A stretch of DNA of 64,000 nucleotides from Clostridia bacterium. GTDB taxonomy: Bacteria; Bacillota; Clostridia; Oscillospirales; Acutalibacteraceae. Where the stretch lies: positions 154,433-218,432 of the forward strand of contig JAFVSK010000023.1 of NCBI GenBank assembly GCA_017503785.1, written 5' to 3'. A program made the position numbers and the translations under genes. Shown here one piece after another: positions 6,212-49,555 of this stretch. The first letter of the stretch is position 1; every line of letters starts with the position of its first letter. The notes below the pieces were generated by a model. It had not been told where the DNA came from and searched no databases. It saw only the letters and a list, made by a program, of their open reading frames with translations.

Positions 6212-6220
6212 TCAAACACA

Positions 6221-6294: not shown

Positions 6295-6329
6295 AATTCA
6301 GTTCGTGAAGAGCTGGATTTGCCCTTTTT
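6290..6329 (+). terminator. Riboswitch-controlled intrinsic terminator
   Basis: GGGCAAAT (6290-6297) pairs with ATTTGCCC (6317-6324), with a CAG/CTG extension inside, followed by TTTTT. Its 5' strand overlaps the pseudoknot strand of the ZTP aptamer, making the two structures mutually exclusive. Confidence 0.9.
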
Positions 6330-31722: not shown

Positions 31723-34236
31723 TTATTTTCCCTGCATTGCCTTAATTTTTTTCTCGGCTTCCTCGCGCATTTTGTACTTGAGGATCTTGCCGGCGGCGTT
31801 CATCGGGAAGTTATCCACAAAATCAATGTAGCGCGGAACCTTGTGGCGCGCCATGTTGGCGGCAATGTAATCGCGCATTTCCTGCTCGGTCATTTGCTCG
31901 CCCTCTTTGAGGATGATGCAAGCCATGATCTCCTCGCCGTACTTTTCATCGGGTACGCCGATGACCTGCACATCGCTGACCTTGGGACAGGTGTAGATGA
32001 ATTCTTCGATCTCCTTGGGGTAAATGTTCTCACCGCCGCGGATGATCATATCCTTCAAGCGGCCGGTAATGCGATAGTTCCCCTCGGGCGTGCGGCAGGC
32101 CAAGTCGCCCGTGTGGAGCCAGCCGTTGGCATCAATGGCATCGGCTGTGGCTTTGGGCATTTTATAGTAGCCCTTCATGACGTTATAGCCGCGGGCGACA
32201 AATTCGCCGTTGACACCGTCGGGGCAATCCTCGCCGGTTTCGGGATCGACGATCTTACATTCCACGTGAGCAAACGCGCTGCCCACCGTTTCGGTGCGCA
32301 CCTCCAACGAGTCGTAATAGCTGCTCATGGTGCAGCCGGGCGAGGCTTCGGTTTGGCCGTATACCGACACGATCTCGCGCATGTTCATCCGCTCGGTGGC
32401 GGCTTTCTTCATGAGGTCGGCCGGACAGTTGGCACCTGCCATAATACCGATGCGCATATAGGAGAAATCCGTTTTCTCGAAGTCCTCGTGCTGCATCATG
32501 GCAATAAACATGGTGGGCACGCCGTTGAACGCCGTGATATGCTCGTTGTGCACGCAGGCCAGCGCCGGCTTGGGCGAGAAATACGGCAGCGGCAGCATGG
32601 TGGTGCCGTGAGTCATGGAGGCTGTCATCGACAACACCATGCCGAAGCAATGGAACATGGGCACTTGGATCATCATGCGGTCGGCTGTGGAGAGATCCAT
32701 GTGGTCGCCGATGTATTTGCCGTTGTTGACCACGTTGTAGTGCGTGAGCATAACGCCCTTGGGGAAGCCCGTGGTGCCCGAGGTGTACTGCATGTTGCAC
32801 ACGTCGTCCTTATCCACGGCGGCGGCCATGCGATAGACCTCCTCCACCGGCACCTGCTCGGCGAGGGCTAAACTATCGTTCCATTCGAGGCAGCCCTTCT
32901 GACGGAAACCGACAGTGATGACATTGCGCAAAAACGGCAAACGGCGGGCGTGCATGGGCTTGCCGGGCTTCAAGTTTTCCAGCTCAGGGCACAGCTCGGC
33001 AATGATCTTGCCGTAGTGGCAATCCTTGGCACCCTCGGTGATGATGAGCGTGTGCGTATCCGACTGGCGCAGCAAATATTCCACTTCGTGGATCTTGTAG
33101 GCTGTGTTGACGGTAACCAGCACGGCGCCCAGCTTCACGGTTGCCCAGAACGCAATGTACCACTGCGGCACGTTGGAGCACCACACCGCCACGTGCGAGC
33201 CTGCCTTAACACCAAGGGCAATGAGCACGCGGGCAAATTCATCGACATCGTCGCGGAATTCACTGTAGGTGCGGGTGTAATCCAGTGTGGTGTATTTAAA
33301 CGCGTATTGATCGGGAAATTCCTCAACCATGCGGTCGAGCACATCGGAGAAGGTGGCGTCGATCAGACGATCCTTTTCCCATACGTATTTACCGGTGTGA
33401 GCGCGGTTATAATACAGCGCCTTTTCGTTGCGCGAGGTATCGCCGAACACCTTCATGTAGGTGACGAACTGGGCGAAGATGATCTCCATATCGTCCAGCT
33501 CCTCGCACCACGTGGGATCCCACACCAGCGAGATGAAGCCATCGTAATTGACGGAGCGCAGCGCCAGCATCATATCGGAAAGCGGCAGCTCGCCCTCGCC
33601 CAACAGGCAATAGGTAACGGTGTCGCCCTCTTTGACGGCATCGTTGATGTGCACGTGACGAACGTAGGCACCGAGATTTTTGATGATCTCGTCGGCGGTT
33701 TCGCCGGCACCCAGATAGGCGGCCGCCATGTTCCACAGCGCGGCGAGATGGTCGCAGGCAAAACGATCGAGCAGGTCGCGCAGCTTGGCCGTGCTTACAA
33801 ACAAGCCTGCCGTTTCCACCAGCAGCGTGATGCCGCTTTCCTCGGCTTCGGGAAGCAGCTCGGCTAACAGCGCATAAACGGTTTCGACAGCACTGTCGGC
33901 GTCGGTCTTGGCTTCGGCGCGCACGCGCACGGCCGGGATCTTCAGATTGCGTGCGATCTCCAAGCATTGACGGATCTCGGCAGCGCACTCGGCGGCGGCC
34001 GACGGATCGGCAATGTCGCCAATGGCATCAATGCACGGCAGCTGCAGCTTCTTTTCATACAAGCGGCGCAGCGTGGCTGCGGCCGTGTAGTCGTGGAACG
34101 CACCGTCCTTGGCGGTGAACAGGCGGTTGTGAATATTGTGCAGTTCGATGCCCTCGAAGCCTAACTCCTGGGCAATATCGCAAAATTCCTCAAACGTGCT
34201 GTTGTGCCAGCCCTTCGTGGAAAAAGAGAATTTCAT
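31723..34236 (-). CDS. Fusion: TIM-barrel (sugar isomerase-like) domain + AMP-forming acyl-CoA synthetase
   Basis: An 837-residue two-domain protein. Residues 1 to about 275 are a xylose-isomerase-like TIM barrel (FEEFCDIAQELGFEGIELHN, TLLVETAG, RHVHINDA); some usual metal residues are changed (LWNMAAAY where an acidic metal ligand is expected). From about 285 it is an ANL ligase: FSDVLDRMVEEFPDQYA, YTSGTTGFPKGVMLTHYN (P-loop), VYGQTEASPG, HTGDLACRTPEGNYRITGR and the C-terminal PMNAAGKILKYKM with the catalytic lysine. The ligase probably activates a short or branched-chain acid; isovalerate is the best guess because the operon has a Leu-type T-box. It starts 3 bases after the LeuA-like gene. 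Confidence 0.82.
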   Translation of the reverse strand: MKFSFSTKGWHNSTFEEFCDIAQELGFEGIELHNIHNRLFTAKDGAFHDYTAAATLRRLYEKKLQLPCIDAIGDIADPSAAAECAAEIRQCLEIARNLKIPAVRVRAEAKTDADSAVETVYALLAELLPEAEESGITLLVETAGLFVSTAKLRDLLDRFACDHLAALWNMAAAYLGAGETADEIIKNLGAYVRHVHINDAVKEGDTVTYCLLGEGELPLSDMMLALRSVNYDGFISLVWDPTWCEELDDMEIIFAQFVTYMKVFGDTSRNEKALYYNRAHTGKYVWEKDRLIDATFSDVLDRMVEEFPDQYAFKYTTLDYTRTYSEFRDDVDEFARVLIALGVKAGSHVAVWCSNVPQWYIAFWATVKLGAVLVTVNTAYKIHEVEYLLRQSDTHTLIITEGAKDCHYGKIIAELCPELENLKPGKPMHARRLPFLRNVITVGFRQKGCLEWNDSLALAEQVPVEEVYRMAAAVDKDDVCNMQYTSGTTGFPKGVMLTHYNVVNNGKYIGDHMDLSTADRMMIQVPMFHCFGMVLSMTASMTHGTTMLPLPYFSPKPALACVHNEHITAFNGVPTMFIAMMQHEDFEKTDFSYMRIGIMAGANCPADLMKKAATERMNMREIVSVYGQTEASPGCTMSSYYDSLEVRTETVGSAFAHVECKIVDPETGEDCPDGVNGEFVARGYNVMKGYYKMPKATADAIDANGWLHTGDLACRTPEGNYRITGRLKDMIIRGGENIYPKEIEEFIYTCPKVSDVQVIGVPDEKYGEEIMACIILKEGEQMTEQEMRDYIAANMARHKVPRYIDFVDNFPMNAAGKILKYKMREEAEKKIKAMQGK

Positions 34237-34239
34237 GGA

Positions 34240-35613
34240 TTACGCCTCCTCGTAGACGATCTTGTTGACAGCGCTCAAATACGCACGGATGCTGGCACCG
34301 ATAATGTCGGTGGAGATGCCGTTGCCGGAATACACCTTACCGCCCGAACGCAGCTTGATAAGCGTGCTGCCCATGGCGCCGCGGCCTTCGGTGACCGACT
34401 GGATCTGGAAATCGTCCACTTCAAAATGCTGGCCGATGATCTGCTCGATGGTGCGGAACGCCGCATCGATGGGGCCATCGCCCGTGTTAATACCGGCCAC
34501 CACCTTGCCGTTGTGGTTCAATGTGATCTGTGCGCTGGCAGCCAGCACGTTGCCGGTGTTGATAACGTAGTTTTCCAGCGTGTAGGTGGCGGGCACCTGC
34601 AACGCAACGCTGGCGATGATGGCATCCAATTCCTTGGCGCCCACCGTTTTCTTTTCGGCAACGCGGCAGAATTCCTCGTAGACCTTGCTTTGGTCTTCCT
34701 CGGACAGGTCGTAGCCCAGCTTTACGGCAGCCGTGATGACGGCGTCCTTATCGTCCTTCGCATCGAGATGAATGGCTTCGTCGGCTGTGGAGAGCACCGC
34801 AGCGGCGGTGTCTTTCGATTTGTCGGCCACCCAGTTGATCTGCTTAATGATGCGCTTCATTTGCGTGTAGCGCAGGCGGCTTTCGAAGCCGTAGGTGTTA
34901 CCGCAGTTCTTTACCATGGTGGCAAAGGTTTCCAGCGGCACCGTGTTGCCGGAAACGTCGGTCTTAACACAGGCCACGCCGCGGCGTACCGCCAAGATCG
35001 CCTGTGCGGCCGCCAAACCGTTTTGGTTATCGCAACGGACACCCACGGGTACGCGGATTCCCTCGGTGGCTTCGGCAACGAAGGCGGCAAAATCATCGGG
35101 CAGCATTTCGCCGGTGCTGTCGCACAGGCTGATGCTGTGGGCACCCGCTTTCACTGCCGCAGCCAATGCCTGCTTCAGATAGGCAGAGTCGGCGCGCGTG
35201 GCGTCCACAGCGCAAAATTCAACGTCGCTGCATTTTTCGGCAGCCATTGCCACTGCGGTGCCGATCCACTCCAGCATGGCGGCAGGCTTTTTATGGGCGG
35301 TGTATTCCATGCCCACGGCCGACAGCGGCAGTTCGATGCGAATGCGCGCGTAAGCGGCGTTGCTCAGCGCCTCGGCAGCCAGATCAATACTTTCCTTGCC
35401 GATACCGGCCGCCACCGAAAGAATACTCTCTTTGGCAAAGGTGCTGATGGTGCGCACCAGCAGCGTATCGGTTTTACCGCCGGCAATGGGCGGCAATTCA
35501 ATCACATCGACGTGTAGGCTTTCCAGCTGACGAGCAATGGCCAGCTTCTCCTTGAAGCTGTAGGCGCTGCCCTGCGAGCAAAGCGTGGTGTCGGCGATTT
35601 GGATGCGGTTCAT
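34240..35613 (-). CDS. LeuA-like protein with a disrupted catalytic site (possible pseudoenzyme)
   Basis: A 457-residue protein with an HMGL-like barrel (1 to about 270) and a well-kept LeuA C-terminal regulatory/dimer domain (GDGPIDAAFRTIEQIIGQHF, GRGAMGSTLIKL, ISTDIIGASIRAYLSAVNK). The barrel has lost the isopropylmalate synthase signature: DTTLRDGEQ is DTTLCSQGS with a shortened loop, and the metal-binding HxH segment is VRCDNQNGLA. Condensation of acetyl-CoA with a 2-oxoacid by the usual mechanism is therefore unlikely. The start ATG 35613 has AAGGAG at the right distance. A Leu T-box controls it. It may be a leucine-binding partner of the next protein or an enzyme of changed chemistry; both are inference. 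Confidence 0.8.
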   Translation of the reverse strand: MNRIQIADTTLCSQGSAYSFKEKLAIARQLESLHVDVIELPPIAGGKTDTLLVRTISTFAKESILSVAAGIGKESIDLAAEALSNAAYARIRIELPLSAVGMEYTAHKKPAAMLEWIGTAVAMAAEKCSDVEFCAVDATRADSAYLKQALAAAVKAGAHSISLCDSTGEMLPDDFAAFVAEATEGIRVPVGVRCDNQNGLAAAQAILAVRRGVACVKTDVSGNTVPLETFATMVKNCGNTYGFESRLRYTQMKRIIKQINWVADKSKDTAAAVLSTADEAIHLDAKDDKDAVITAAVKLGYDLSEEDQSKVYEEFCRVAEKKTVGAKELDAIIASVALQVPATYTLENYVINTGNVLAASAQITLNHNGKVVAGINTGDGPIDAAFRTIEQIIGQHFEVDDFQIQSVTEGRGAMGSTLIKLRSGGKVYSGNGISTDIIGASIRAYLSAVNKIVYEEA

Positions 35614-35653
35614 AGTGATCGACTCCTTCTTGCACAAACGTGCGATTTAACGT

Positions 35654-35925
35654 AAAAAAAGCCCTGAGGCCACAGTGACCTCAGGGACGAAAAACCTTTT
35701 CCGCGGTACCACCCTGATTACCGTTACAAGAACGGTCATCTCATTAAGAACTCCAACAAGCTCTCTGCCATGATAACGGGGCAAGCCGTAGCAGCCTACT
35801 GGGAAGCCTTTTCAGCCACTCTGCTCAGGAGCCAGAATTTCTGTTCCCACCGTACCGCCCTCACAGCAACGGCGGCTCTCTGTAACGGTTTGCGGAATAG
35901 AAAAATCTCCATCGACGCATTTAAA
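35654..35925 (-). promoter_or_regulatory. T-box leader, specifier CUG (leucine)
   Basis: Read on the minus strand: stem I begins near 35915, and the specifier triplet CUG (35835-35833) precedes GCTCCTGAG, the position found by alignment with the two other T-boxes in this window. The T-box bulge TGGTACCGCGG is at 35711-35701 and the terminator TCCCTGAGG...CCTCAGGG with seven A on the plus strand is at 35687-35654. Uncharged tRNA-Leu would favour read-through. The codon is assigned by alignment, not by a computed fold. Confidence 0.9.
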
Positions 35926-35938
35926 AAATATTGATACC

Positions 35939-35967
35939 ATTATAAATCATCGTTTTTGATTTGTCAA
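35939..35967 (-). promoter_or_regulatory. Sigma-A promoter of the Leu T-box operon
   Basis: Perfect consensus on the minus strand: TTGACA (35967-35962), 17 bases, TATAAT (35944-35939). Confidence 0.92.
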
Positions 35968-35984
35968 CAGGTATTTTTAGATTT

Positions 35985-37823: not shown

Positions 37824-38835
37824 AGCCAACCTCCGAAAGTGCATGATAAAAATTCTCAACGTATGCGGCAAAGCCGTCGTCATTGGGATGCAGGCGCAGA
37901 TCGGCGAAATACGCCGAATCCTTAGGAACGAGATCGTATCCGTCGATCACCGTTACCTGCGGCAGATGCGCGGTTTCCTCGTGGATGAGCCGCTGCACAT
38001 CCAAAAACGCGCAGTCTTTTGCCTCTGCATGATCGCCACGCCAGATCGGGGTGAGTGCCACGATCGTCACCCCCGGGTAGGAGGTGCACAGCGCCTCGTA
38101 GAACGCGCGGCAGGCCGTGCGGATGGTTGCTTCGGTGTCTTTCGACCAATCGTTCGTGCCGTATGCGACCCAAATGAGAGCAGGCGTAAAATCGTCCGGT
38201 GTAGCCGCGAGCGGCGGAAAAAAACATTCGCCGCCGATCGCCTTATTCACTTCCTCGGCACCGAGACGGTCGCAGATCTGCGCTGCATAACGGTGCGATG
38301 CGTAGCGTGCATCGTATCCCTGCGTGATGGAATCACCAAGCACCAGTATCTTTTTATCGGGCTTTACGGGTGTAAACGTTGCATCGTCGTCCAAAGTCAG
38401 TGTTTTGAGCACCGCAACGACCGACCACGGGAAGTGGATGCAGACCTCCTTCTCACCCGCACCAAGATCGAACGCCCCCTCAAACGAGCCGATCGGCAGT
38501 TCCTGCTGCGGAGCCCCCTGCAGCACGGTATCACCGATATTGTCCAGTGTGCCGATGCGTTTTCCGTTAACCAACACGTCAAACGAAAAATAACTGCGCG
38601 AGGTTCCCTGCGTTACGGTGACAGCAAGCCCCAGTGAGCAGCTGTTCGTGCGAAAGTGCAGACGAACGCCCGCCGTGGTGATGCTGCGCACATAGGCCGA
38701 GGCCTTGGCGGCAGTGCGGCTGTACAGCGCCTCTTGCGCCTCGGTAAAGCGATAGAAATGAATACCCTGCTCGTCTTGTTGTACGCGCACAGCGCCGAGG
38801 GTGGCAGCTTTCAGTTGTTCAAAAGTTACACGCAT
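37810..38835 (-). CDS. SGNH/GDSL-family esterase
   Basis: A 341-residue cytoplasmic hydrolase: an N-terminal beta-sandwich (about 1-155) as in SsfX3-like carbohydrate esterases, then an SGNH domain with block I LGDSITQG (nucleophile S169), block II GGEC (G201-G202), block III YGTND (N228) and block V DLRLHP (D312, H316). It probably deacetylates or de-esterifies a sugar. It forms an operon with the FAD oxidoreductase. Confidence 0.87.
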   Translation of the reverse strand: MRVTFEQLKAATLGAVRVQQDEQGIHFYRFTEAQEALYSRTAAKASAYVRSITTAGVRLHFRTNSCSLGLAVTVTQGTSRSYFSFDVLVNGKRIGTLDNIGDTVLQGAPQQELPIGSFEGAFDLGAGEKEVCIHFPWSVVAVLKTLTLDDDATFTPVKPDKKILVLGDSITQGYDARYASHRYAAQICDRLGAEEVNKAIGGECFFPPLAATPDDFTPALIWVAYGTNDWSKDTEATIRTACRAFYEALCTSYPGVTIVALTPIWRGDHAEAKDCAFLDVQRLIHEETAHLPQVTVIDGYDLVPKDSAYFADLRLHPNDDGFAAYVENFYHALSEVGYDRF

Positions 38836-38847
38836 GACGACTCTCCT

Positions 38848-39849: not shown

Positions 39850-39873
39850 ACGGTTCACCTCTGCTTCGTTTTG

Positions 39874-39906
39874 AAAAGCCGAGGAAATGGTGTTTCCTCG
39901 GCTTTT
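39874..39906. terminator. Terminator of the Val T-box operon (after ilvE)
   Basis: AAAAGCCGAGGAAA and TTTCCTCGGCTTTT pair perfectly around TGGTG; A- and T-runs make it work in both directions. Confidence 0.9.
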
Positions 39907-39913
39907 GTGTTTG

Positions 39914-40978
39914 TTAATCGATTTGGCAGGTCCAGCCGAAGGTGTCTTCGCCCTTGCCCCACTGGATACCGGTGAGGGTATCGTACAGCAGCTGGGTGAC
40001 TTCGCCGATCTTGCCTTCATTTACGGGGTGCTGAACACCCTTATAGCAGAACTCGCCGATGGGCGATACCACCGCAGCCGTGCCGCAGCCCCACGCCTCT
40101 TCCAGCGTGCCGTTTTCCATGGCGGCTTCCAGCTCGTCGATGCTGAACAGGCGCTCGGTTACCTTGTAACCGGCCTTTTTGAGCACCTCGATGCAGGATT
40201 TGCGGGTGATACCCGGCAGAATGGAGCCGGACAGCATGGGCGTGATGATCTCGCCGCCGATCTTGAACATGACGTTCATGGCGCCAACTTCTTCAATGTA
40301 CTTGCGCTCCACGCCATCGAGCCACAACACCTGCGAATAGCCCTTTTGCTCGGCACGCTCACCGGCACGGTTGGAGGCGGCATAGTTACCGCCGCACTTG
40401 GCTTCACCGGTACCGCCGCGCACGGCACGGACATCCTGATCCTCGATCATGATCTTGACCGGGTTGATGCCCTCTTTATAGTAGCTGCCCACGGGAGAGG
40501 CGATGATGACGTAGGTGGCGTTGTGCACTGCGTGCACACCCAGCGTTTCATCGTTACCGAACATGAACGGGCGCAGGTACAGCGAGGTGCCGGGGGCCGA
40601 GGGAGTCCACTCCTGCTCGAATTTCACAAATTCCTTGAGAATGTACAGAGCATCCTCCTCGGGAATGGTGGGCAGGCACATACGCTCGGCCGAGCGGTTC
40701 ATACGGCGGATATTCTCCAGCGGACGGAACAGCTGCACCTTACCGTCGGCGCGACGGTAGGCCTTTAAGCCCTCGAAGATCTCGGAGCCGTAGTGCAGCA
40801 CCGTGGAAGCCGGATGCAGCGACAGGTTGCCGAACGGTACGATGCGGGCATCGTGCCAGCCCTGCTCACGCGAATAGTCCATGATGAACATGTGGTCGGA
40901 GAAATATTTACCGAAGCCCAGGGTAGAAGCCTCCGGCTTTGCCTTGGGAGCGGTGGTTTTGGTAATGGTGATCTGCAT
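39914..40978 (-). CDS. ilvE: Branched-chain amino acid aminotransferase
   Basis: A 354-residue fold-type IV PLP enzyme exchanging amino groups between glutamate and the 2-oxoacids of Val, Ile and Leu. The family marks are HYGSEIFEGLKAYRR, RPFMFGNDETLGVH, AKCGGNYAAS, QVLWLDGVERKYIEEVGAMN (PLP lysine in the SGNYAAS/AKxGGNY region upstream) and SGSILPGITRKS. ATG 40978 was chosen for AAGGAG; an upstream GTG lies inside the ribosome site. It is the last gene of the Val T-box operon and would supply the final step to valine. Confidence 0.95.
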   Translation of the reverse strand: MQITITKTTAPKAKPEASTLGFGKYFSDHMFIMDYSREQGWHDARIVPFGNLSLHPASTVLHYGSEIFEGLKAYRRADGKVQLFRPLENIRRMNRSAERMCLPTIPEEDALYILKEFVKFEQEWTPSAPGTSLYLRPFMFGNDETLGVHAVHNATYVIIASPVGSYYKEGINPVKIMIEDQDVRAVRGGTGEAKCGGNYAASNRAGERAEQKGYSQVLWLDGVERKYIEEVGAMNVMFKIGGEIITPMLSGSILPGITRKSCIEVLKKAGYKVTERLFSIDELEAAMENGTLEEAWGCGTAAVVSPIGEFCYKGVQHPVNEGKIGEVTQLLYDTLTGIQWGKGEDTFGWTCQID

Positions 40979-40990
40979 ACTGCTCACTCC

Positions 40991-41527
40991 TTATTCATAA
41001 TCGGCACCGAGCTGCATAGCCTTTAAGTTGGTTTCCAACATATCGGCACGCTTGGCGGAAATCACCTTGCCCAGTGAAGCGCGCAGGGAGGTTTCGTCGA
41101 AGTCGTTCAGTACCTTGAGGATCTTACCCATCAGCACCATGTTGGCGAGGGTGGGCATGTTGTTTTCGTTGGCGATCTTGGTGGCGGGAACGTAGTACAC
41201 GGTTACGTCATCGCGCTCGACCTTGCGCTCAATGAGCGTGGAGTCGGCAAAGATGATGCCGCCGGGCACCACGGCCGATTCGTATTTATCCAACGAGGGC
41301 AGGTTCATGGCTACCAGCACGTCGGGATTGGCAACGATGGGCGAACCCACCGGATCGTCGCTGAGAATGATGCCGCAGCTGGCGGTGCCGCCGCGCATTT
41401 CGGGGCCGTAGGACGGCAACCAGCTGACCTGCTTATCGGCCATTAAGCCTTTGTAGGCCAAGAATTTGCCGGCGAACAGAATACCCTGACCGCCGAAGCC
41501 GGAAAACAGAAATTGTGTGGTACTCAT
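40991..41527 (-). CDS. 2-oxoacid:ferredoxin oxidoreductase, gamma subunit
   Basis: A 178-residue subunit of the pyruvate/2-ketoisovalerate ferredoxin oxidoreductase family (gamma domain): [17 protein letters not shown] at the N-terminus, [17 protein letters not shown] in the middle. It overlaps the beta gene by 4 bases. With the alpha, beta and ferredoxin subunits it completes a VorABCD-type four-subunit enzyme. Confidence 0.93.
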
Positions 41528-42285
41528 TTCGCTTCCTCCTTTGCTGCGGAACGGTCTTTATACACGCCGAGCGGATAGTACGGCAGCATGTTGTCGTCGA
41601 TCCATTTCAGGGCGGCCTGCGGAGTCATACCCCAGTTGGTGGGGCAAGAGGACACCACCTCGACCAGCGAGAAGCCCTTGCCGTCTAACTGGTTCTGGAA
41701 CGCCTTTTTGATGGCCTTCTTGGCGGCGCGAATGTTCTTGACGCTGTTCACGGTGACACGCTCCAGATACTCGGGGCCCTCGAGCTGCGACAGCATCTCG
41801 CACACGCGGATGGGATAACCGCAGTGGTTAACGTCGCGGCCGTAGGGCGAGGTCTGCGTGACCTGGCCGGGCAGCGAGGTGGGAGCCATCTGGCCGCCGG
41901 TCATGCCGTAAATAGCGTTATTGACGAAGATGATGGTGATATTCTCGTTGCGGGCCGCGGCGTGCACCGTTTCCGCCATACCGATGGAGGCTAAGTCGCC
42001 GTCGCCCTGGTAGGTGAATACCACGTGGTTTTCGGGATCGGAGCGCTTAACGCCGGTGGCGATGGCCGGAGCGCGGCCGTGAGCGGCTTCGATCATATCG
42101 CAATTGAAGTAGTTATACGCCATAACCGAGCAACCAACCGGTGCGATACCGATGGTGCGGCCTTCGATGCCCAGTTCATCCAGCACCTCGGCCACCAAGC
42201 GGTGAATGATACCGTGGGTGCAGCCGGGGCAATAGTGCATGGGCATATCGTTAAGAGCGTGGGGTTTATCAAACACAACAGCCAT
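41524..42285 (-). CDS. 2-oxoacid:ferredoxin oxidoreductase, beta (TPP-binding) subunit
   Basis: A 253-residue thiamine pyrophosphate subunit. CPGCTHGIIHRL carries cluster cysteines, GIAPVGCSV follows, and the TPP-Mg motif GDGDLASIGMAE...NNAIYGMTGGQ is complete. In the VOR class this subunit catalyses reversible decarboxylation of branched-chain 2-oxoacids to acyl-CoA. It overlaps the alpha gene by one base. Confidence 0.94.
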   Translation of the reverse strand: MAVVFDKPHALNDMPMHYCPGCTHGIIHRLVAEVLDELGIEGRTIGIAPVGCSVMAYNYFNCDMIEAAHGRAPAIATGVKRSDPENHVVFTYQGDGDLASIGMAETVHAAARNENITIIFVNNAIYGMTGGQMAPTSLPGQVTQTSPYGRDVNHCGYPIRVCEMLSQLEGPEYLERVTVNSVKNIRAAKKAIKKAFQNQLDGKGFSLVEVVSSCPTNWGMTPQAALKWIDDNMLPYYPLGVYKDRSAAKEEAK

Positions 42286-43349
42286 TATTGGGCACCTCCG
42301 TTCGCAGCGTTTTTAATGGATTCCAGCACCTGCTCGGGCGAGGGGATCATGCCGCCGGCGCGATTGCACAGCGTGACCGGTACCTTGCACTCGGTGGCGA
42401 GGCGCACGTCTTCGATCATCTGGCCCATCGAGAGCTCGACCGAAATGAACGCCTTGGCGTGCTCGACGGCCTTGGCAAACGGAGCCTTCGGGAACGGCCA
42501 CAGCGTGATGGGACGAATGAGACCCACCTTGATGCCCTGCTTGCGGGCTTCCACCACGGCGCTGCGTGCCACGCGGGCGGCAATGCCGAAGGCGGCTACC
42601 ACGATGTCGGCATCGTCCACCAGGTACTCCTCGTACATGGCTTCGTGCTCTTCAATGTACTTGTAGCGCTCGTAGCGGTCGAAGTTGAACTTTTCCAGTT
42701 CCTCGGGAGCGAGGAACAGCGAGTTCACAATGTTATGCTCGCGCTCCAGCTTGGTACCGGTGGTTGCCCACGGCTTTTCGGGAGCGGGCTTAATGTCGAA
42801 ATCGAGGCTGACGGGCTCCATCATCTGACCCATCGTACCGTCGGCCAGCACCATGGCGGTCATGCGATAGGTATCGGCCAGTTCAAAGCCTTTTACCGTG
42901 AGGTCGGCCATTTCCTGCACCGAAGCGGGTGCCAGCACGATCATGCGGAAATCGCCGTGGCCGCCGGCACGGGTGGCCTGAAAATAGTCGGACTGGCTGG
43001 GCTGGATACCACCGAGGCCCGGGCCGCCGCGCTGGACGTTAACGATGAACGCCGGCAGGTCGGCACCTGCCAGATAGGACAGGCCCTCGCTCTTGAGCGC
43101 AATACCGGGGCTGGAGGACGAGGTCATTACGCGCTTGCCGGTGGAGGACACGCCGTAGACCATGTTGATCGCGGCGATCTCACTTTCGGCCTGCAGGAAG
43201 CAGCCGCCGATCTTGGGCATCTTCTTTGCCATGTACGCTGCAATTTCGGTTTGCGGCGTGATGGGATAACCGAAATAATGACGGCAACCGGCCAAGATCG
43301 CCGCTTCGGCGATGGCTTCGTTACCTTTCATCAATACTTTATCTGCCAT
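42285..43349 (-). CDS. 2-oxoacid:ferredoxin oxidoreductase, alpha subunit (VorB-like)
   Basis: A 354-residue alpha subunit: MKGNEAIAEAAILAGCRHYF, GYPITPQTEIAAYMA, QAESEIAAINMVYGVSSTG and RGGPGLGGIQPSQSDYFQA are typical of VorB/KorA. The C-terminal domain is of the short four-subunit type, lacking fused gamma or ferredoxin modules. ATG 43349 was chosen for AAGGTGAGCACG upstream. The Val T-box on the operon and the adjacent ilvE favour 2-oxoisovalerate over 2-oxoglutarate as substrate. Confidence 0.93.
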   Translation of the reverse strand: MADKVLMKGNEAIAEAAILAGCRHYFGYPITPQTEIAAYMAKKMPKIGGCFLQAESEIAAINMVYGVSSTGKRVMTSSSSPGIALKSEGLSYLAGADLPAFIVNVQRGGPGLGGIQPSQSDYFQATRAGGHGDFRMIVLAPASVQEMADLTVKGFELADTYRMTAMVLADGTMGQMMEPVSLDFDIKPAPEKPWATTGTKLEREHNIVNSLFLAPEELEKFNFDRYERYKYIEEHEAMYEEYLVDDADIVVAAFGIAARVARSAVVEARKQGIKVGLIRPITLWPFPKAPFAKAVEHAKAFISVELSMGQMIEDVRLATECKVPVTLCNRAGGMIPSPEQVLESIKNAANGGAQ

Positions 43350-43359
43350 CGTGCTCACC

Positions 43360-43566
43360 TTACCTTTCTACCTTAATGATACAGTCGGGGCACATCATTG
43401 CGCAGGAAGCGCAGCCCACGCAGGCCGCCTCATCGGTGATCTCTGCGGGGTGGTGACCCTTTTTGTTGATCTTGTCTTTGGCCAGCTGTAAAAGCTTTTT
43501 CGGGCAGGCATCTACGCACAGTCCGCAGCCCTTGCAGTTGTCGGTCTTGAATGTCAGCTTTGCCAT
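43360..43566 (-). CDS. 2x[4Fe-4S] ferredoxin subunit of the 2-oxoacid oxidoreductase
   Basis: A 68-residue ferredoxin with two cluster motifs, CKGCGLCVDACP (residues 11-22) and CVGCASCAMMCP (49-60). It is the delta/D subunit of VOR and passes electrons between free ferredoxin and the TPP site. ATG 43566 was chosen because GGGAG stands upstream and the protein then begins exactly as other VorD subunits; longer frames reach into the neighbouring gene. Confidence 0.94.
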   Translation of the reverse strand: MAKLTFKTDNCKGCGLCVDACPKKLLQLAKDKINKKGHHPAEITDEAACVGCASCAMMCPDCIIKVER

Positions 43567-43592
43567 ATTCACTACTCCCTTATATTGATCTA

Positions 43593-44267
43593 TCAGCAAG
43601 AAAAGCCGATTTTTGCCTGTAATTCCAACGGAAACAGCTGTGGCACCTTGCCCTCCAGCTCGCTGCACAGCTCGCTTTTGGCGGTGGTGAGCACCAGCGG
43701 CAGGCCGGTGAGCTCTGCCACCTCCCGCGCATAGTCGAGCGAGGCCAGCACGTCTTGTGCCGTGGTTTCCACACCAAGATTGGAATTGTTGATGAGCCCC
43801 GTAAACGGGATGCCGCACGCCGTTTCGATCTCGCGCATCACTTCGAGCGTGGCGGGAGCATCGGGGGTGAGCGGGCGGTAACGGTTGATGACCATCAGCA
43901 TGGAATAGTTATTCTCTGCTTTGATCTGTGGGGCGAGGCGGCCCAGCGCCAGCGCGCCGCGGTCGTCGCCGCCGATATCCAACACGACGGTAAGCTCTTT
44001 ATCGTCGGTGATGGCGTACATTTCGGGCGGCAGGGCGGGAATATCCACATTGCTGTTAGCATATTCCGAACAGATGAGCCCAATGCCGCGTGCAGCGAAA
44101 TCGTCGCTGCTGTCTTTCGTGCGGAAATACGGATTGACAATGTCCAGATCGGCGATAGTGACCCGCTCGTGCTGCTTCTTGAGCGCATAGGCGAGGTTGA
44201 CCGCCACGTTGGTTTTGCCGCTGCCGTAGTGGCCGCACAAAATGGTAAGTCGCTTATGTTCGTTCAT
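43593..44267 (-). CDS. P-loop NTPase of the CobQ/MinD/ParA type
   Basis: A 224-residue ATP-binding protein with Walker A CGHYGSGKTNVAVNLA (about residues 11-26), LDIVNPYFRT as the switch I region and VVLDIGGDDRGA as Walker B. It resembles the small MinD-like proteins that accompany 2-oxoacid:ferredoxin oxidoreductase operons in Clostridia. It may help assemble or load Fe-S clusters on VOR, by analogy with Mrp/MinD-like proteins; this is inference. It lies between the ligase (9-base gap) and the ferredoxin gene (26 bases). Confidence 0.85.
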   Translation of the reverse strand: MNEHKRLTILCGHYGSGKTNVAVNLAYALKKQHERVTIADLDIVNPYFRTKDSSDDFAARGIGLICSEYANSNVDIPALPPEMYAITDDKELTVVLDIGGDDRGALALGRLAPQIKAENNYSMLMVINRYRPLTPDAPATLEVMREIETACGIPFTGLINNSNLGVETTAQDVLASLDYAREVAELTGLPLVLTTAKSELCSELEGKVPQLFPLELQAKIGFSC

Positions 44268-44276
44268 ATCGTCACC

Positions 44277-46562
44277 TTACAGCTTATTGCGCTGGATCTT
44301 GCCGCTGACCGTCTTGGGCAGGCTGTCGCGGAAGACGACGATACGGGGATATTTGTACGGAGCGGTGCGTTTTTTGACGTAGTCTTGAATTTCCTTCTTG
44401 AGCTCGTCGGTGGGTTCGGTGCCGTCGACCAGTACGATGCTGGCCTTGACCACCTGACCGCGCACCTCATCGGGGGCGGCAGACACGCCGCATTCCAGTA
44501 CGTAGGGCAGCTCCATGATGACGCTTTCGATCTCGAACGGCCCGATACGGTAGCCGGAGGACTTGATCACGTCGTCCACACGGCCGACGTACCAGTAGAA
44601 GCCGTCTTCATCCTGCCATGCGGTATCGCCCGTGTGGTAGAAGCCGTCGTGCCAGACTTCGGCGGTTTTTTCGGGGGCGTTATAATAGCCCGTGAACAAG
44701 CCGCAGGGAGCGCCGTTTTTGACGTTGACCACGATCTCGCCGGTTTCACCCACCGGAACGGGATTGCCGTCGGGATCGACGATGCTCACGTCGTAAATGG
44801 GAGCCGGCTTACCCATGGAACCGATCTTATGCGAGGCACCTACCATGTTGCCGATGACCATGGTGCTTTCGGTTTGACCGAAGCCCTCGATGATCTGCAG
44901 ACCGGTGGCCTTTTCGAATTGGCGGTATACCTCGGGGTTCAGCGCTTCGCCCGCAGTGGTCATGTGCTTAACGGACGAGAAATCATACTTGGAGATATCC
45001 TGCTTGATCATCATGCGCAGCATGGTGGGCGGCGCACAGAACGTGGTGATCTTATACTTGGCAAACATGGGCAGAATATCGGCGGCATCGAAACGGTCGA
45101 AGTCGTACACAAAAGTGGCGGCTTCGCACAGCCATTGACCATACAGCTTACCCCACATGGCCTTTGCCCAGCCGGTGTCGGAAATGGTGAAATGCAATCC
45201 GTCGGGATCGACATCGTGCCAGTAGCGGGCCGTGTGGAAGTGGCCCAGCGCGTATTTATAGTTATGAGCGGCGATCTTGGGATAGCCCGTGGTGCCCGAG
45301 GTGAAGAACATGAGCATCAGGTCGTCGCCGCCGGGAGCATCCTCGGTGCGCTTGTAATGCGTGCTGTACAGCGGATATTCTTCGTCGAAGCTGCGCCAGC
45401 CCTCGCGTTCGCCGTTAACGATGAGTTTATGCTTCAGCGTGGGACAGTTTGCGGCGGCCAGCTCCACCTGATGCGCCGTATCGCCGTCGGCCGTGCACAG
45501 CACTGCGCTGACACCGGCCGCTTGGAAGCGGTATTCCAAGTCGTGCTCCACCAACTGGTTGGGGGCCGGAATGGCAATGGCACCCAGCTTGTTCAAGCCG
45601 ATCATGGCGAACCAGAACTGATAGTGGCGCTTGAGAATGAGCATCACGCGGTCGCCCTTTTTGATGCCGAGCGACTTGAAATAGTTCGCGCACTGGTTGG
45701 ACAGCTTCTTAATATCCTTAAACGTGAAGCGGCGCTCGGTGTGGTCGCGGCTGACGTGCAGCATGGCCAGCTTTTCCGGCTCGCGCTCGGCCAGCGCATC
45801 CACCAAGTCGAACGCAAAGTTGAACTTTTCGATGTTTTTGAACGTAATGGACGTGGGCGTGCCCTTTTCGTTTTCCGTTACGTCGATAAACTGCTTATAG
45901 ATACGGTCTTTGGTATCTTTATGCGCGGTGGCACGCTCGGCCACCTCGGGGGCGGCCAGCTCGGGAATGGGCTCGCCGGTGGGGTTGAGCACGATGGCGT
46001 AGAACACGCAATCCTCACCGCCCACGGCGATCATGCCGTGCGGGGTGTCGGAGTCGAAATAAATGCTGTCGCCGGGGCCGAGAACCTCGGTGTGCTCGCC
46101 CACCTGCACCTTCAGCTTACCGCTGATGATGAGATCGCATTCCTGACCGGCGTGGGTGGTGAGCTCGATATCCTTTTGCTGGGCAGCTTCATCGTACACG
46201 CTGCGCACGTACAACGGCTCGGCAATACGGTTGCGGAACGCGTAGGCCAGGTTATAATACGTCATACCGTGGGCCTGCGACACCTTTTGCCCCGCACCGA
46301 AGCGGGTGACTGTGTAGGATTTCAGGGTGGGGCTGTAGCCCTCGATGATATCGGTGACGTTGACGTTGAGCGCCATGGCGCAGCGATAGATGAACGCAAA
46401 GTTCAAGTCGCTTTTGCCGCTTTCACATTCCGTGTATTCCGCGGCAGAAACGCCGGTTTTGACCGCCATCTCCTCCACCGACAAGCCTTCCAGCTCACGC
46501 AGGGCGCGGATACGCCCTGCCATTTCTTTAATTTTAAAGTCTAAGCCTGTGATCTGTTCCAT
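44277..46562 (-). CDS. Fusion: XRE helix-turn-helix + cupin + AMP-forming acyl-CoA synthetase (Val T-box copy)
   Basis: A 761-residue three-domain protein. Residues about 10-70 form an XRE-type HTH (RALRELEGLSVEEMAVKTGV). Residues 120-185 form a cupin (ECDLIISGKLKVQVGEHTEV, GDSIYFDSDTPHGM), the layout of XRE-cupin regulators. From about 235 to the end it is an ANL ligase with FFTSGTTGYPKIAAHN (P-loop), GFGQTESTMV, YHTGDTAWQDEDG, GRVDDVIKSSGYRIGP and a terminal KTVSGKIQRNKL with the catalytic lysine. The chain ends on this motif as in short- to medium-chain ligases. It likely makes isobutyryl-CoA for VOR and may sense its own substrate. ATG 46562 follows AAGAGGG. Confidence 0.88.
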   Translation of the reverse strand: MEQITGLDFKIKEMAGRIRALRELEGLSVEEMAVKTGVSAAEYTECESGKSDLNFAFIYRCAMALNVNVTDIIEGYSPTLKSYTVTRFGAGQKVSQAHGMTYYNLAYAFRNRIAEPLYVRSVYDEAAQQKDIELTTHAGQECDLIISGKLKVQVGEHTEVLGPGDSIYFDSDTPHGMIAVGGEDCVFYAIVLNPTGEPIPELAAPEVAERATAHKDTKDRIYKQFIDVTENEKGTPTSITFKNIEKFNFAFDLVDALAEREPEKLAMLHVSRDHTERRFTFKDIKKLSNQCANYFKSLGIKKGDRVMLILKRHYQFWFAMIGLNKLGAIAIPAPNQLVEHDLEYRFQAAGVSAVLCTADGDTAHQVELAAANCPTLKHKLIVNGEREGWRSFDEEYPLYSTHYKRTEDAPGGDDLMLMFFTSGTTGYPKIAAHNYKYALGHFHTARYWHDVDPDGLHFTISDTGWAKAMWGKLYGQWLCEAATFVYDFDRFDAADILPMFAKYKITTFCAPPTMLRMMIKQDISKYDFSSVKHMTTAGEALNPEVYRQFEKATGLQIIEGFGQTESTMVIGNMVGASHKIGSMGKPAPIYDVSIVDPDGNPVPVGETGEIVVNVKNGAPCGLFTGYYNAPEKTAEVWHDGFYHTGDTAWQDEDGFYWYVGRVDDVIKSSGYRIGPFEIESVIMELPYVLECGVSAAPDEVRGQVVKASIVLVDGTEPTDELKKEIQDYVKKRTAPYKYPRIVVFRDSLPKTVSGKIQRNKL

Positions 46563-46587
46563 AGTCAATTCCCTCTTTCGTGGGACG

Positions 46588-46882
46588 ATAAAAGCACTCG
46601 CCCCAAAGTAATGACTTTGAGACGAGTGCTGATTAGTCACCCGCGGTACCACTCAAATTGCCATCTGCCTTGGGGCAGACAACCACTCTTCGGGATCTAA
46701 CAATCCCTATGCCTTTACGCAGCAATCACGGAGAGGTTCTACTCCCCCGTTTGGGGTTTCTTCCTCTCGGCTCGGAAGCTACAAACGCAAAGATCATGCC
46801 AATGGCTTACACCAACCGCCATCTCTCTGAAGGATGATTCCCTGCGCACTCTTCGTCAGTGCCTTTTGTTTTATTAAATATA
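46588..46882 (-). promoter_or_regulatory. T-box leader, specifier GUA (valine)
   Basis: Minus strand: stem I lies near 46850-46760, and specifier GUA (46782-46780) precedes GCTTCCGAG, the conserved 3' flank of the specifier loop. The antiterminator motif TGGTACCGCGG is at 46651-46641. The terminator GCACTCGTCTCAAAGT...ACTTTGGGGCGAGTGC is followed by TTTTAT at 46629-46588. Uncharged tRNA-Val should switch on the ligase-VOR-ilvE operon. The codon is assigned by alignment with the other two leaders. Confidence 0.92.
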
Positions 46883-46888
46883 TAGGGG

Positions 46889-46918
46889 ATTATAGCACAT
46901 CCCACTTGTGGCTGTCAA
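46889..46918 (-). promoter_or_regulatory. Sigma-A promoter of the Val T-box operon
   Basis: Minus strand TTGACA (46918-46913), 18 bases, TATAAT (46894-46889). Confidence 0.88.
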
Positions 46919-46951
46919 CTCTTTTTTTGATAAAAAGTGCGAAAATGCGCC

Positions 46952-49219
46952 TTACAGCTTGTTGCGCTGGATCTTGCCGCTGATGGTCTTGGGGAGCTCG
47001 TCGCGGAAGACCACCACACGGGGGTATTTGTACGGCGCGGTGTGCTCTTTGACATAGGTTTGGATCTCTTTTTTGAGTTCCTCGGTGGGCTCGGTGCCCT
47101 TGGTGAGCACGATGCTGGCCTTGACTACCTGACCGCGCACCTCATCCGGCACGGCCGATACGCCACATTCCACCACGTAGGGCAGTTCCATGATAACACT
47201 TTCGATCTCGAACGGCCCGATGCGGTAGCCCGACGATTTGATGACATCGTCTACGCGGCTGACATACCAGAAATAGCCGTCCTCGTCGCGCCATGCGGTG
47301 TCGCCCGTGTGATACAGGCCGTCGTGCCAGGCCTCCTGCGTTTTCTCGTCGTCAAGATAGTATTCCTTGAACAGACCGCAGGGTACGCGCTTGTCGGTGT
47401 GGATGACGATCTCGCCCGTTTCGCCCACTGCAACGGAGTTGCCGTCGGGATCGACGATGTCGAGATCAAACTGCGGCGAGGCCTTGCCCATGGAACCGAT
47501 CTTCGGCACGGTACCCACCAGGTTGGCGATGGCCAGCGTGGTTTCGGTTTGGCCGAAGCCCTCCATGATCTCCAGACCCGTAGCGGCTTTAAACTGCTTG
47601 AACACCTCGGGGTTCAGCGCTTCGCCGGCGGTGGTCATGTGATGGATGGAGGACAGATCGTATTTGCTCAGATCGCCGCGGATGAGCATGCGCAGCATCG
47701 TGGGCGGCGCGCAGAACGTGGTGATATTGTACTTGGCGAACATGGGCAGAATGTCGTTTTCGTCGAAACGATCGAAGTCGTACACAAAGACGGCACCCTC
47801 GCACAGCCATTGGCCGTACAGCTTGCCCCACAGCGATTTACCCCAACCGGTATCGGAGATGGTGAGGTGCAAGCCGTCGCGCTCGCAGCAATGCCAGTAG
47901 CGGGCGGTAACGTAGTGGCCCAGCGCATAGGTGTGCTTGTGAGCCGCCATTTTGGGGTTGCCGGTGGTGCCGGAGGTGAAGAACATGAGTGCCGTGTCAT
48001 CACCTGCCGAGGCATCCTCGGGACGGACGAATTTGCGCGAGAACAGCTTGAACTCGCTGTCGAAATCGTGCCAACCGTCGCGGGCACCGCCCACCATCAC
48101 CTGCGTGATGTTCTGCTTGCATTTTTTGGCGGCTGCGGCAGCGATCTCGGCGGTATCGCCGTCGGCGGTGCAAACGATCGCCGTGACACCCGCCGCGTTG
48201 AAGCGATATTCAAAATCGTGCTCCTTGAGCTGGTTGGTGGCGGGAATGGCCACCGCGCCCAGTTTATGCAATGCTACCATGGCAAACCAGAACTGATAGT
48301 GGCGCTTGAGCACCAGCATCACCTTGTCGCCGCGCTTGATGCCCAGCGAGGTGAAGTAGTTGGCCGCTTGGTTGGAGTAGTGCTTAATATCTTTAAACGT
48401 GAAGCGACGCTCGTTCTTATGCTTATCGAGATGCAGCATGGCCAGCTTGTCGGGATACTGCTCGGCGATGCCGTCGACGATATCAAAGCCGAAGTTGAAC
48501 GTATCGGTATTTTTAAACTCGATATGCTGCAGGGCGCCGTGCTCGTCCTCCTGCGTTTCCACAAACTTTTCGCACACCAGCGGTTGCGAACGGGTGGACG
48601 ATACCAGATTGCGGCGCACGACCTCTTCCTTGGTGTCCTCGCCCGGGAGAACCACCGCACAGAACACGCAATCCTGCCCCTCCACCGCGCGCATACCGTG
48701 CGGTGCGGAGGAGTCGTAATAGATGCTGTCGCCCTCGCCGAGCACCTCGGTGTGCTCGCCCACCTGCACCATCAGTTTACCGCTGATAACGAGGTCAAAT
48801 TCCTGACCGCTGTGGGTGGCCAGCTGAATGGGCTTATTTTGCTGGGCGGGATCGTATTCATACCGCACCCAGTAGGGCTCGGCAATTTTATCGCGGAATT
48901 TGGGAGCCAGGTTGGCAATGCTGATGCCGTTTTCCTTGGCCGTTTGCTGACCATGACCCTTGCGCGTAACGGTGTACGAGGACAAACGGGCACTGGTGGT
49001 GCCCTCCAGCAGGTCGGACATGCCGATGCCGAACTCCTGCGCGCACTTATGGATAAACGAGAACGGAAAATCCTGCTCACCGGATTCCAGCTTGAGGTAT
49101 TCCTCGGTGCTCAGTTCCACCTTCTCTGCCATCTGCTCGATTGTATAACCGGCAATTTCACGCATCTCCTTAATTCGCAGAGCCACCTCATACAGTTTTT
49201 CCGTTGCTACAGTTGACAT
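46952..49219 (-). CDS. Fusion: XRE helix-turn-helix + cupin + AMP-forming acyl-CoA synthetase (Ile T-box copy)
   Basis: A 755-residue paralogue of the Val-linked fusion with the same three domains: HTH (REIAGYTIEQMAEKVELSTE), cupin (FDLVISGKLMVQVGEHTEVL, SIYYDSSAPHGM) and ANL ligase (FFTSGTTGNPKMAAHK, GFGQTETTLA, YHTGDTAWRDEDG, TISGKIQRNKL). The ligase halves are much more alike than the HTH and linker parts. The start ATG 49219 has AAAGGAGGA at 7 bases; another ATG six bases upstream is too close to it. By the Ile-type T-box it probably activates 2-methylbutyrate. It is monocistronic, followed by the promoter of the Val operon. Confidence 0.88.
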   Translation of the reverse strand: MSTVATEKLYEVALRIKEMREIAGYTIEQMAEKVELSTEEYLKLESGEQDFPFSFIHKCAQEFGIGMSDLLEGTTSARLSSYTVTRKGHGQQTAKENGISIANLAPKFRDKIAEPYWVRYEYDPAQQNKPIQLATHSGQEFDLVISGKLMVQVGEHTEVLGEGDSIYYDSSAPHGMRAVEGQDCVFCAVVLPGEDTKEEVVRRNLVSSTRSQPLVCEKFVETQEDEHGALQHIEFKNTDTFNFGFDIVDGIAEQYPDKLAMLHLDKHKNERRFTFKDIKHYSNQAANYFTSLGIKRGDKVMLVLKRHYQFWFAMVALHKLGAVAIPATNQLKEHDFEYRFNAAGVTAIVCTADGDTAEIAAAAAKKCKQNITQVMVGGARDGWHDFDSEFKLFSRKFVRPEDASAGDDTALMFFTSGTTGNPKMAAHKHTYALGHYVTARYWHCCERDGLHLTISDTGWGKSLWGKLYGQWLCEGAVFVYDFDRFDENDILPMFAKYNITTFCAPPTMLRMLIRGDLSKYDLSSIHHMTTAGEALNPEVFKQFKAATGLEIMEGFGQTETTLAIANLVGTVPKIGSMGKASPQFDLDIVDPDGNSVAVGETGEIVIHTDKRVPCGLFKEYYLDDEKTQEAWHDGLYHTGDTAWRDEDGYFWYVSRVDDVIKSSGYRIGPFEIESVIMELPYVVECGVSAVPDEVRGQVVKASIVLTKGTEPTEELKKEIQTYVKEHTAPYKYPRVVVFRDELPKTISGKIQRNKL

Positions 49220-49242
49220 ATCCATTCCTCCTTTTGAAAAAT

Positions 49243-49522
49243 AAAAAACACTCGTCTCAATCATTGAGACGAGTGTGTAAATACACATCCGCGGTACCAC
49301 TCAATTTGCCGCCGAAGCGACCGCTTATCGAGGCCCAACAGCCCCTATGCCTTTACGCAGCAATCACGGGAGTTCCTACGGGGACCAACGCCCTTTCAAA
49401 GCTCCGGCTCGGAAGTGATGGGCTGTTTTGAACACTTGTTATCGGTTTACACCAACCACCGACTCTCTGTGAACGCCTGCTCAAAGCCGTCTTCGTCATA
49501 GCCTTTGATATGAAATTGATAG
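49243..49522 (-). promoter_or_regulatory. T-box leader, specifier AUC (isoleucine)
   Basis: Minus strand: stem I lies near 49490-49400, and specifier AUC (49419-49417) precedes ACTTCCGAG. The T-box TGGTACCGCGG is at 49299-49289. The terminator CACACTCGTCTCAA / TTGAGACGAGTGT with a T-run is at 49276-49243. The leader is clearly homologous to the Val leader in its 3' half (shared GTGATTGCTGCGTAAAGGCA). Confidence 0.92.
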
Positions 49523-49527
49523 TAAAC

Positions 49528-49555
49528 ATTATAGCACCGTGTTTGGATTTGTCAA
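49528..49555 (-). promoter_or_regulatory. Sigma-A promoter of the Ile T-box gene
   Basis: Minus strand TTGACA (49555-49550), 16 bases, TATAAT (49533-49528). Confidence 0.85.

Follow-up and report, generated by a model that had tools for sequence, protein, structure and literature searches.

Three T-box leaders reading Leu, Val and Ile codons precede acyl-CoA ligase units of a probable branched-chain acid to amino acid pathway in a Clostridia bacterium

We analyzed a 64,000 nucleotide stretch of DNA (the window; assembly GCA_017503785.1, contig JAFVSK010000023.1, positions 154,433 to 218,432) from a Clostridia bacterium, which forms part of contig C36 of a draft metagenome-assembled genome (MAG) of 2.06 Mb in 64 contigs. 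The subject of this analysis is a set of three consecutive minus-strand units, Ile, then Val, then Leu, each with its own promoter, T-box leader and terminator and each carrying an acyl-CoA ligase gene, which together make up a candidate route from branched-chain acids to the three branched-chain amino acids (BCAA). T-boxes are a family of leaders that turn genes on when an amino acid is scarce. In the Ile unit the promoter, T-box and terminator are followed by one gene, encoding an XRE-cupin-ligase (ATG 49219). The Val unit encodes a second XRE-cupin-ligase (ATG 46562), a P-loop ATPase, a ferredoxin, three subunits of a 2-oxoacid:ferredoxin oxidoreductase (VOR) and the aminotransferase IlvE. 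The Leu unit consists of a LeuA-like gene (ATG 35613) followed by a TIM-barrel-ligase fusion. The coordinates of all features and the model matches on which they were called are collected in Table 1.

Table 1. Features of the Ile, Val and Leu units, with positions numbered along the window.
Feature	Coordinates	Strand	Evidence
Sigma-70 promoter, Ile unit (TTGACA-16-TATAAT)	49528..49555	-	12/12 consensus match
T-box leader, specifier AUC (Ile) at 49417-49419	49262..49508	-	RF00230 84.8 bits, E 3.1e-18, under Rfam cut-off 93
Intrinsic terminator, Ile leader	49248..49276	-	13-pair stem, then T-run
XRE-cupin-acyl-CoA ligase, Ile type (probable 2-methylbutyrate ligase)	46952..49219	-	Pfam HTH_19, Cupin_2, AMP-binding, AMP-binding_C; ATG after AGGAGG-type site
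Sigma-70 promoter, Val unit	46889..46918	-	12/12 consensus match
T-box leader, specifier GUA (Val) at 46780-46782	46615..46868	-	RF00230 86.4 bits, E 1.2e-18, under Rfam cut-off 93
Intrinsic terminator, Val leader	46593..46630	-	17-pair stem and T-tail
XRE-cupin-acyl-CoA ligase, Val type (probable isobutyrate ligase)	44277..46562	-	Pfam; NCBIfam best MbcS 438.7 bits, cut-off 850
P-loop ATPase (CbiA/ParA/Mrp-like)	43593..44267	-	PF01656 34.1 bits; weak MrpORP 25.6 bits; homologues in 55/80 related loci
Ferredoxin-type delta subunit (2x4Fe-4S)	43360..43566	-	Fer4 domains; open reading frame (ORF) opens upstream of this start, near which the match to most relatives begins
2-oxoacid:ferredoxin oxidoreductase alpha subunit, VorB type	42285..43358	-	NF005507 540.8 bits, cut-off 399
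Oxidoreductase beta subunit (thiamine pyrophosphate, TPP)	41524..42285	-	PRK09628 / PorB_KorB, under cut-offs
Oxidoreductase gamma subunit	40991..41527	-	PRK08537 / PorC_KorC, under cut-offs
ilvE, branched-chain aminotransferase	39914..40987	-	NF009897 479.5 bits (cut-off 307), TIGR01123 399.9 bits (cut-off 250.05)
Sigma-70 promoter, Leu unit	35939..35967	-	12/12 consensus match
T-box leader, specifier CUG (Leu) at 35833-35835	35680..35924	-	RF00230 106.6 bits, over Rfam cut-off 93
Intrinsic terminator, Leu leader	35662..35686	-	11-pair stem and T-run
LeuA-like pseudoenzyme: degenerate HMGL-like domain and conserved LeuA_dimer allosteric domain	34240..35613	-	Pfam; motif loss 25/25
TIM-barrel (AP_endonuc_2)-acyl-CoA ligase fusion (probable isovalerate ligase)	31723..34236	-	Pfam; PRK12583 657.5 bits, cut-off 832

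An initial annotation, made from the letters alone, had placed three T-box leaders here with the specifiers CUG, GUA and AUC. All three were recovered on the minus strand by the Rfam T-box model (RF00230), and the specifiers were confirmed both in the Rfam-model alignments and in the specifier column of a stem-I covariance model of our own. The leaders have Stem I, the specifier, the AGAGAG and GNUG elements, the antiterminator and the terminator in common with the T-box riboswitch family. The Leu leader alone passed the Rfam gathering threshold of 93, while the Val and Ile leaders fell under it with E-values of about 1e-18; other T-boxes of the same genome also scored under this cut-off (thrS 86.8, alaS 82, pheS 72.7 and aspS 39 bits). 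Control leaders were read correctly by both routes (trpB UGG, cysE/cysS UGC, thrS ACC and alaS GCC), these four being also among the 34 training rows of the covariance model. The pheS specifier was read by eye as UUC and the weak aspS match was unreadable. Promoters and terminators were evaluated by scanning the 19 kb region against shuffled sequence, which gave 13 promoter-like sites (10.9 expected) and 31 terminator-like hairpins (22.6 expected). As these totals barely exceed the shuffles, the weight rests on the quality and position of the sites: the only three of the 13 promoter sites that matched 12/12 each lay just upstream of one of the three leaders, and one hairpin lay directly 3' of each leader. 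Terminators were examined for the three window leaders only. A conserved operator was sought upstream of the promoters and only A-rich stretches were seen.

Conservation of the specifiers was assessed in relatives of the Ile ligase, at least 592 of which were confirmed in GTDB species genomes. The best 80 of the 592 were used, that is, a sample close to the window, and nearly all of these came from Clostridia-type MAGs, mostly of animal gut and rumen and many of them named Oscillospiraceae. Ligases were labeled Ile-type or Val-type by their best BLAST match among the two window ligases. The stem-I model was built from 30 rows chosen among 72 leaders pre-read as Ile, Val or Leu plus the four in-genome controls, and it found 148 leaders in 87 sources, 114 of them outside the training rows. 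Counted over the leaders found in the 80 related loci and the window, the specifier agreed with the gene throughout. Leaders of Ile-type ligases read AUC in 72/72 cases, leaders of Val-type ligases read GUA (43) or GUC (5) in 48/48, and leaders of LeuA-like genes read CUC (14), CUG (5) or a CUC read by hand (one) in 20/20. The hand-read case is the L073 leader, for which the model gave CCT through a one-base slip and which was entered as CTC on eye reading. Leader matches without an assigned gene were found before cut or broken Val ligases (L058 and L077, both GTA) and near a contig end (L072, CTC), and one leader (L046, GTA) precedes ilvE. The four in-genome controls make up the rest of the 148. 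The antiterminator base opposite tRNA base 73 was U, as expected for A73, in 71/72 Ile, 47/48 Val and 19/20 LeuA-like leaders (137/140 overall). The cluster with an AUC leader was also present in a MAG named Sphaerochaetaceae, a spirochaete (L084), either by lateral transfer or through a binning error.

The acid used by each XRE-cupin ligase was approached through its relatives. The Ile-type ligase, the only one searched against solved structures, matched 3etc at 632.5 bits with the next structure at 338.5 bits. This enzyme, MacS of Methanosarcina acetivorans, shares the ligase domain and a glycine at position 278 with the Ile type, and its preferred acid is 2-methylbutyrate according to the passage on it in PMC10455477; unlike the window protein it is archaeal, and the XRE-cupin domain is absent from its aligned 580-residue chain. 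The nearest NCBIfam model for both ligases was MbcS of Staphylococcus (NF047394). Filing them as MbcS was ruled out by scores of about half the cut-off, leaving them kin only. In the relevant part of PMC10026030, MbcS is a single enzyme that accepts both 2-methylbutyrate and isobutyrate, takes isovalerate poorly and serves lipid synthesis. Since the MbcS and MacS kin serve acids branched at carbon 2, isovalerate would need an unrelated third ligase, as the cluster shows. The same kinship with MbcS, which feeds FabH (same part of PMC10026030), would fit a role in membrane lipid supply: the ligases would then prime fatty-acid synthesis with branched acyl-CoA, like MbcS in Staphylococcus, and the presence of the amino-acid genes would be incidental. 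We consider this improbable, as the leaders read Ile, Val and Leu codons, the ligases share their cluster with VOR and ilvE, and ilvC is rare beside the tandem ligase pair, as shown below. The acyl-CoAs could nevertheless serve both lipids and amino acids.

Comparison of 79 Ile-type with 50 Val-type proteins over 526 ligase columns identified position 278 of the 3etc chain as the most discriminating column. This position held glycine in 78/79 Ile-type proteins, as in 3etc, and alanine in 50/50 Val-type proteins. In an alignment with an acetyl-CoA synthetase it falls on the Val of the GWVTG motif, a known acyl-pocket residue. When set against the codon read in the leader, leaving out the 14 sequences without a read specifier, the residue agreed in 114/115 sequences (Ile, 69 Gly and 1 Ala; Val, 45 Ala). 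The sole Ile-labeled ligase with alanine at this position (L053) sits on a long branch (0.49) and possibly reflects a sequencing or assembly fault. Quick trees were built for the two parts of the protein separately. The ligase-domain tree required five changes between Ile and Val labels, at least three of which were forced by well supported branches, while the XRE-cupin-domain tree required a single change with an SH-aLRT of 100. It appears that tandem copies have swapped ligase domains or undergone conversion, while the codon, the residue at position 278 and the N-terminal domain were kept together. We take this as strong evidence that the T-box codon labels the acid of the ligase.

The first gene of the Leu unit had been called LeuA-like in the initial annotation. 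Its kinship with LeuA held, as the protein shares the HMGL-like fold and the LeuA_dimer domain; a working LeuA did not. Compared with solved LeuA chains, the RDG motif and the HxH pair, presumably the metal-binding residues of LeuA, were gone. His stood at neither place of the HxH in any of 25 homologues, the window's included, and RDG and GERxGN were also lost in 25/25. The gene was therefore rejected as a working isopropylmalate synthase. Both Pfam domains were matched in 20/20 homologues scanned, of the 25, and the LeuA_dimer domain of the window protein scored 104 bits against a cut-off of 24.9. This allosteric domain was better conserved than the catalytic one, with a mean majority share of 0.75 and 50/127 columns at 90% or more as compared to 0.52 and 25/246. 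A search with the dimer domain alone against solved structures returned no LeuA match. By these comparisons we regard the LeuA-like protein as a conserved pseudoenzyme, a degenerate LeuA paralogue with an intact allosteric domain, and our best guess is that it acts as a leucine-sensing partner of the isovalerate ligase. The TIM-barrel-ligase gene followed directly in 26/27 related loci, and the exception (L065) ends about 200 bases past the LeuA-like gene. The AMP-binding genes found in the genome were the three ligases and a second TIM-barrel-ligase, no more. This additional copy lies on a short contig, C9 (L018, G000:C9:1-6871), on which the LeuA-like/TIM-barrel-ligase stretch recurs, its ORFs unchanged in length and its LeuA-like protein 100% identical, and which is probably a strain duplicate in the MAG.

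If the three amino acids are made from branched-chain acids, the usual biosynthetic genes should be dispensable, and the initial annotation had named ilvC, ilvD and leuBCD as the ones to look for. Profile searches found neither ilvD (PF00920) nor ilvC (PF01450) in the genome, while both were found in 14/14 control genomes, and leuBCD was not recognizable. The sole PF00330 gene scored 962 bits with an aconitate hydratase model (cut-off 612) and is assigned to that enzyme. The sole PF00180 gene matched the isocitrate dehydrogenase (IDH) model best at 259 bits (cut-off 509), followed by LEU3_arch at 233 bits and leuB at 132 bits (cut-off 353). Both lie on contig C30 (L017, G000:C30:10000-25000), where a Re-citrate-synthase-like gene, a GntR regulator, the aconitase and the IDH-type gene stand side by side, likely as a glutamate arm. 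We therefore rejected leuBCD on C30; as the aconitase and IDH-type genes fit next to the Re-citrate-synthase-like gene, a complete leu pathway is not recognizable. The two genes may stand in for leu steps, and their presence, together with the LeuA fold and the Leu T-box, would suit a separate Leu route in which the LeuA-like protein and the TIM-barrel-ligase start from 2-oxoisovalerate and the citrate-branch aconitase and isocitrate dehydrogenase replace LeuCD and LeuB. With HxH, RDG and GERxGN gone in all 25 homologues, however, condensation by known chemistry is very unlikely, and we regard this route as exceedingly improbable.

The distribution of ilvC was then compared with that of the ligases in 200 family genomes that were at least 90% complete, 198 of which were also at most 5% contaminated. 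ilvC was present in 2/23 genomes with the tandem ligase pair, 5/21 with two separate copies, 12/28 with one copy and 103/128 with none listed, a class defined as having no full-length XRE-ligase among the matches listed, which may include genomes with weaker full-length ligases. The LeuA-like gene was found in 22/23 tandem-pair genomes, and ilvC occurred in 10/53 genomes with a LeuA-like gene as compared to 112/147 without one. The P-values of these family-genome comparisons, 4.8e-8 and 2.6e-13, do not account for kinship. Within the genus of the window, G018 had ilvC and no ligase match at 1e-100, and G000 and G118 had the pair and no ilvC.

The remaining steps of the proposed route fall to the Val unit, for which the initial annotation had claimed four VOR subunits and ilvE. 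Profile matches agreed with this gene content when the ferredoxin is counted as a subunit. The alpha subunit passed the NCBIfam VorB cut-off, and the adjacent beta, gamma and delta homologues scored below the cut-offs of the models they matched. The P-loop ATPase, perhaps a helper in Fe-S loading, is conserved; neither this gene nor the fact that the LeuA-like gene has lost its catalytic motifs had been annotated before. The Ile ligase is followed by 9 kb or more of sequence in 45 loci; in 37 of these vorA, B and C lie in that downstream stretch, and in 32 the Val ligase does. VOR reactions are reversible and are used in peptide fermentation by other anaerobes, which lends some plausibility to a catabolic direction in which VOR and IlvE oxidize Val, Ile and Leu to acyl-CoA and ferredoxin while the ligases scavenge or recycle the acids. 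Against this direction, T-boxes activate at amino-acid scarcity, AMP-forming ligases cost ATP, the genome is without ilvC and ilvD, and 21/23 tandem-pair genomes are without ilvC, so that we judge it very improbable.

Together these data make it highly likely that Val, Ile and Leu are made from branched-chain acids, with one dedicated ligase per amino acid under its own T-box. What the initial annotation said of the sequence was correct, and its reading of the pathway is very probably correct too; the substrates, the direction of flux and the response to tRNA are our inference. In the proposed scheme the acids would be taken from gut fluid, the Ile-type XRE-cupin ligase would make 2-methylbutyryl-CoA, the Val-type ligase isobutyryl-CoA and the TIM-barrel ligase isovaleryl-CoA. 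The ferredoxin-dependent VOR of the Val operon would reductively carboxylate all three acyl-CoAs to the 2-oxoacids, which IlvE would then aminate. Shortage of one amino acid would leave its tRNA uncharged and lead to anti-termination of the matching ligase unit, so that the commitment step would be tuned per amino acid with the shared enzymes, VOR and IlvE, under the Val switch. The weakest step of the scheme concerns the LeuA-like pseudoenzyme, which most likely retains the leucine-binding domain of LeuA so as to sense leucine and give feedback to the isovalerate ligase encoded next to it. A broader version of this idea, which we put forward tentatively and with more doubt than confidence, is that each branch has two product sensors, the T-box and a protein domain governing the ligase (XRE-cupin for Ile and Val, the dead LeuA for the isovalerate ligase), LeuA and XRE-cupin having been recruited as amino-acid-specific feedback modules of a salvage pathway. 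It is suggested because the XRE-cupin domains split cleanly by amino acid though the ligase domains do not, and because the LeuA allosteric domain is better conserved than the dead catalytic domain.

Several observations weigh against synthesis from branched-chain acids under three T-boxes. The MAG is 95.3% complete and 6.07% contaminated. Two of the 23 tandem-pair genomes do carry ilvC and 4/23 carry an ilvD-family gene (460 bits in G105 and 452 bits in G116, both of which have ilvC; weaker in G004, 358 bits, and G050, 364 bits). The IDH-type gene is under the cut-offs of the IDH and leuB models alike. MbcS is the best NCBIfam model for both XRE-cupin ligases, but at 440.1 and 438.7 bits against a cut-off of 850. 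The acid of the TIM-barrel ligase is suggested only by the Leu T-box and by gene position. VOR genes were absent from the downstream sequence in 8 of the 45 Ile-ligase loci where it extends for 9 kb or more. Among genes with uncut leaders no T-box was seen for 7/79 Ile-ligase, 5/53 Val-ligase and 8/28 LeuA-like genes. Finally, tRNA-Ile(GAU) and tRNA-Leu(CAG) were not named by ARAGORN among the 39 tRNA genes found in the MAG, and the cognate tRNAs for two of the three specifiers are thus unseen.

Some of the leaderless genes directly abut their neighbor, as if co-operonic. At L087, L089 and L090 the Ile and Val ligases each lie within about 65 bases after the TIM-barrel-ligase and no leader was seen before either, so that a single operon appears to have replaced the split control. 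The tRNAs that ARAGORN did find include Val(UAC), Leu(UAG), Leu(GAG), Leu(UAA) and Leu(CAA). The tRNA gene set is visibly incomplete, other expected tRNAs being missing as well; the missing genes may be an assembly loss, and CUG could be read by tRNA-Leu(UAG) via wobble.

It has been known since the 1960s that branched volatile fatty acids act as growth factors for rumen anaerobes. Allison and co-workers (1962-1971, as cited in PMC7356843) described rumen bacteria that make Val from isobutyrate, Ile from 2-methylbutyrate and Leu from isovalerate. The same acids are proposed here for the same amino acids; that work, as cited there, was biochemical, whereas the present proposal adds a gene set, a ligase for each acid and control by tRNA. 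Rumen methanogens convert 2-methylbutyrate to Ile and isovalerate to Leu (PMC10658910), again the same acids, but these organisms are archaea and the passage names neither genes nor T-box control. BCAA T-boxes have been surveyed upstream of genes for amino acid synthesis, transport and tRNA ligases, and in Bacillales and Clostridia T-box control of BCAA biosynthesis is reported (PMC2494555, relevant passage). In contrast to the T-boxes described in that passage, three differently specified copies here would divide one salvage pathway at its acid-activating step. A literature search, mostly without subscription journals and not aimed at LeuA pseudoenzymes or XRE-cupin ligases, found no T-boxes on such ligases and no such cluster described. 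The initial annotation had named no known description of this exact split regulation, and none appeared in the literature searched. The chemistry is old and the genetic design looks new.

These results name a candidate gene set for branched-acid use and make cross-feeding testable. Annotation by ilv and leu genes would score such genomes as auxotrophs. The T-box specifier would also offer a way to label enzymes by substrate: the codon would predict the acid, and one ligase residue agrees with it in 114/115 sequences. If the sensing role proposed for the conserved dead LeuA beside the ligase is true, leucine would be sensed by a protein of a new type.

Other features of the window were recorded in passing. 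An acyltransferase, a GDSL hydrolase and an FAD (flavin adenine dinucleotide) enzyme separate ilvE from the Leu unit, with no visible link to the pathway. An amino acid permease gene at 30189-31601 lies just past the TIM-barrel-ligase on the same strand and may belong to the Leu operon; it has its own weaker promoter-like site (10/12). A ZMP/ZTP riboswitch at 6219-6300 (65.6 bits) lies upstream of an ORF at 6351-8582.

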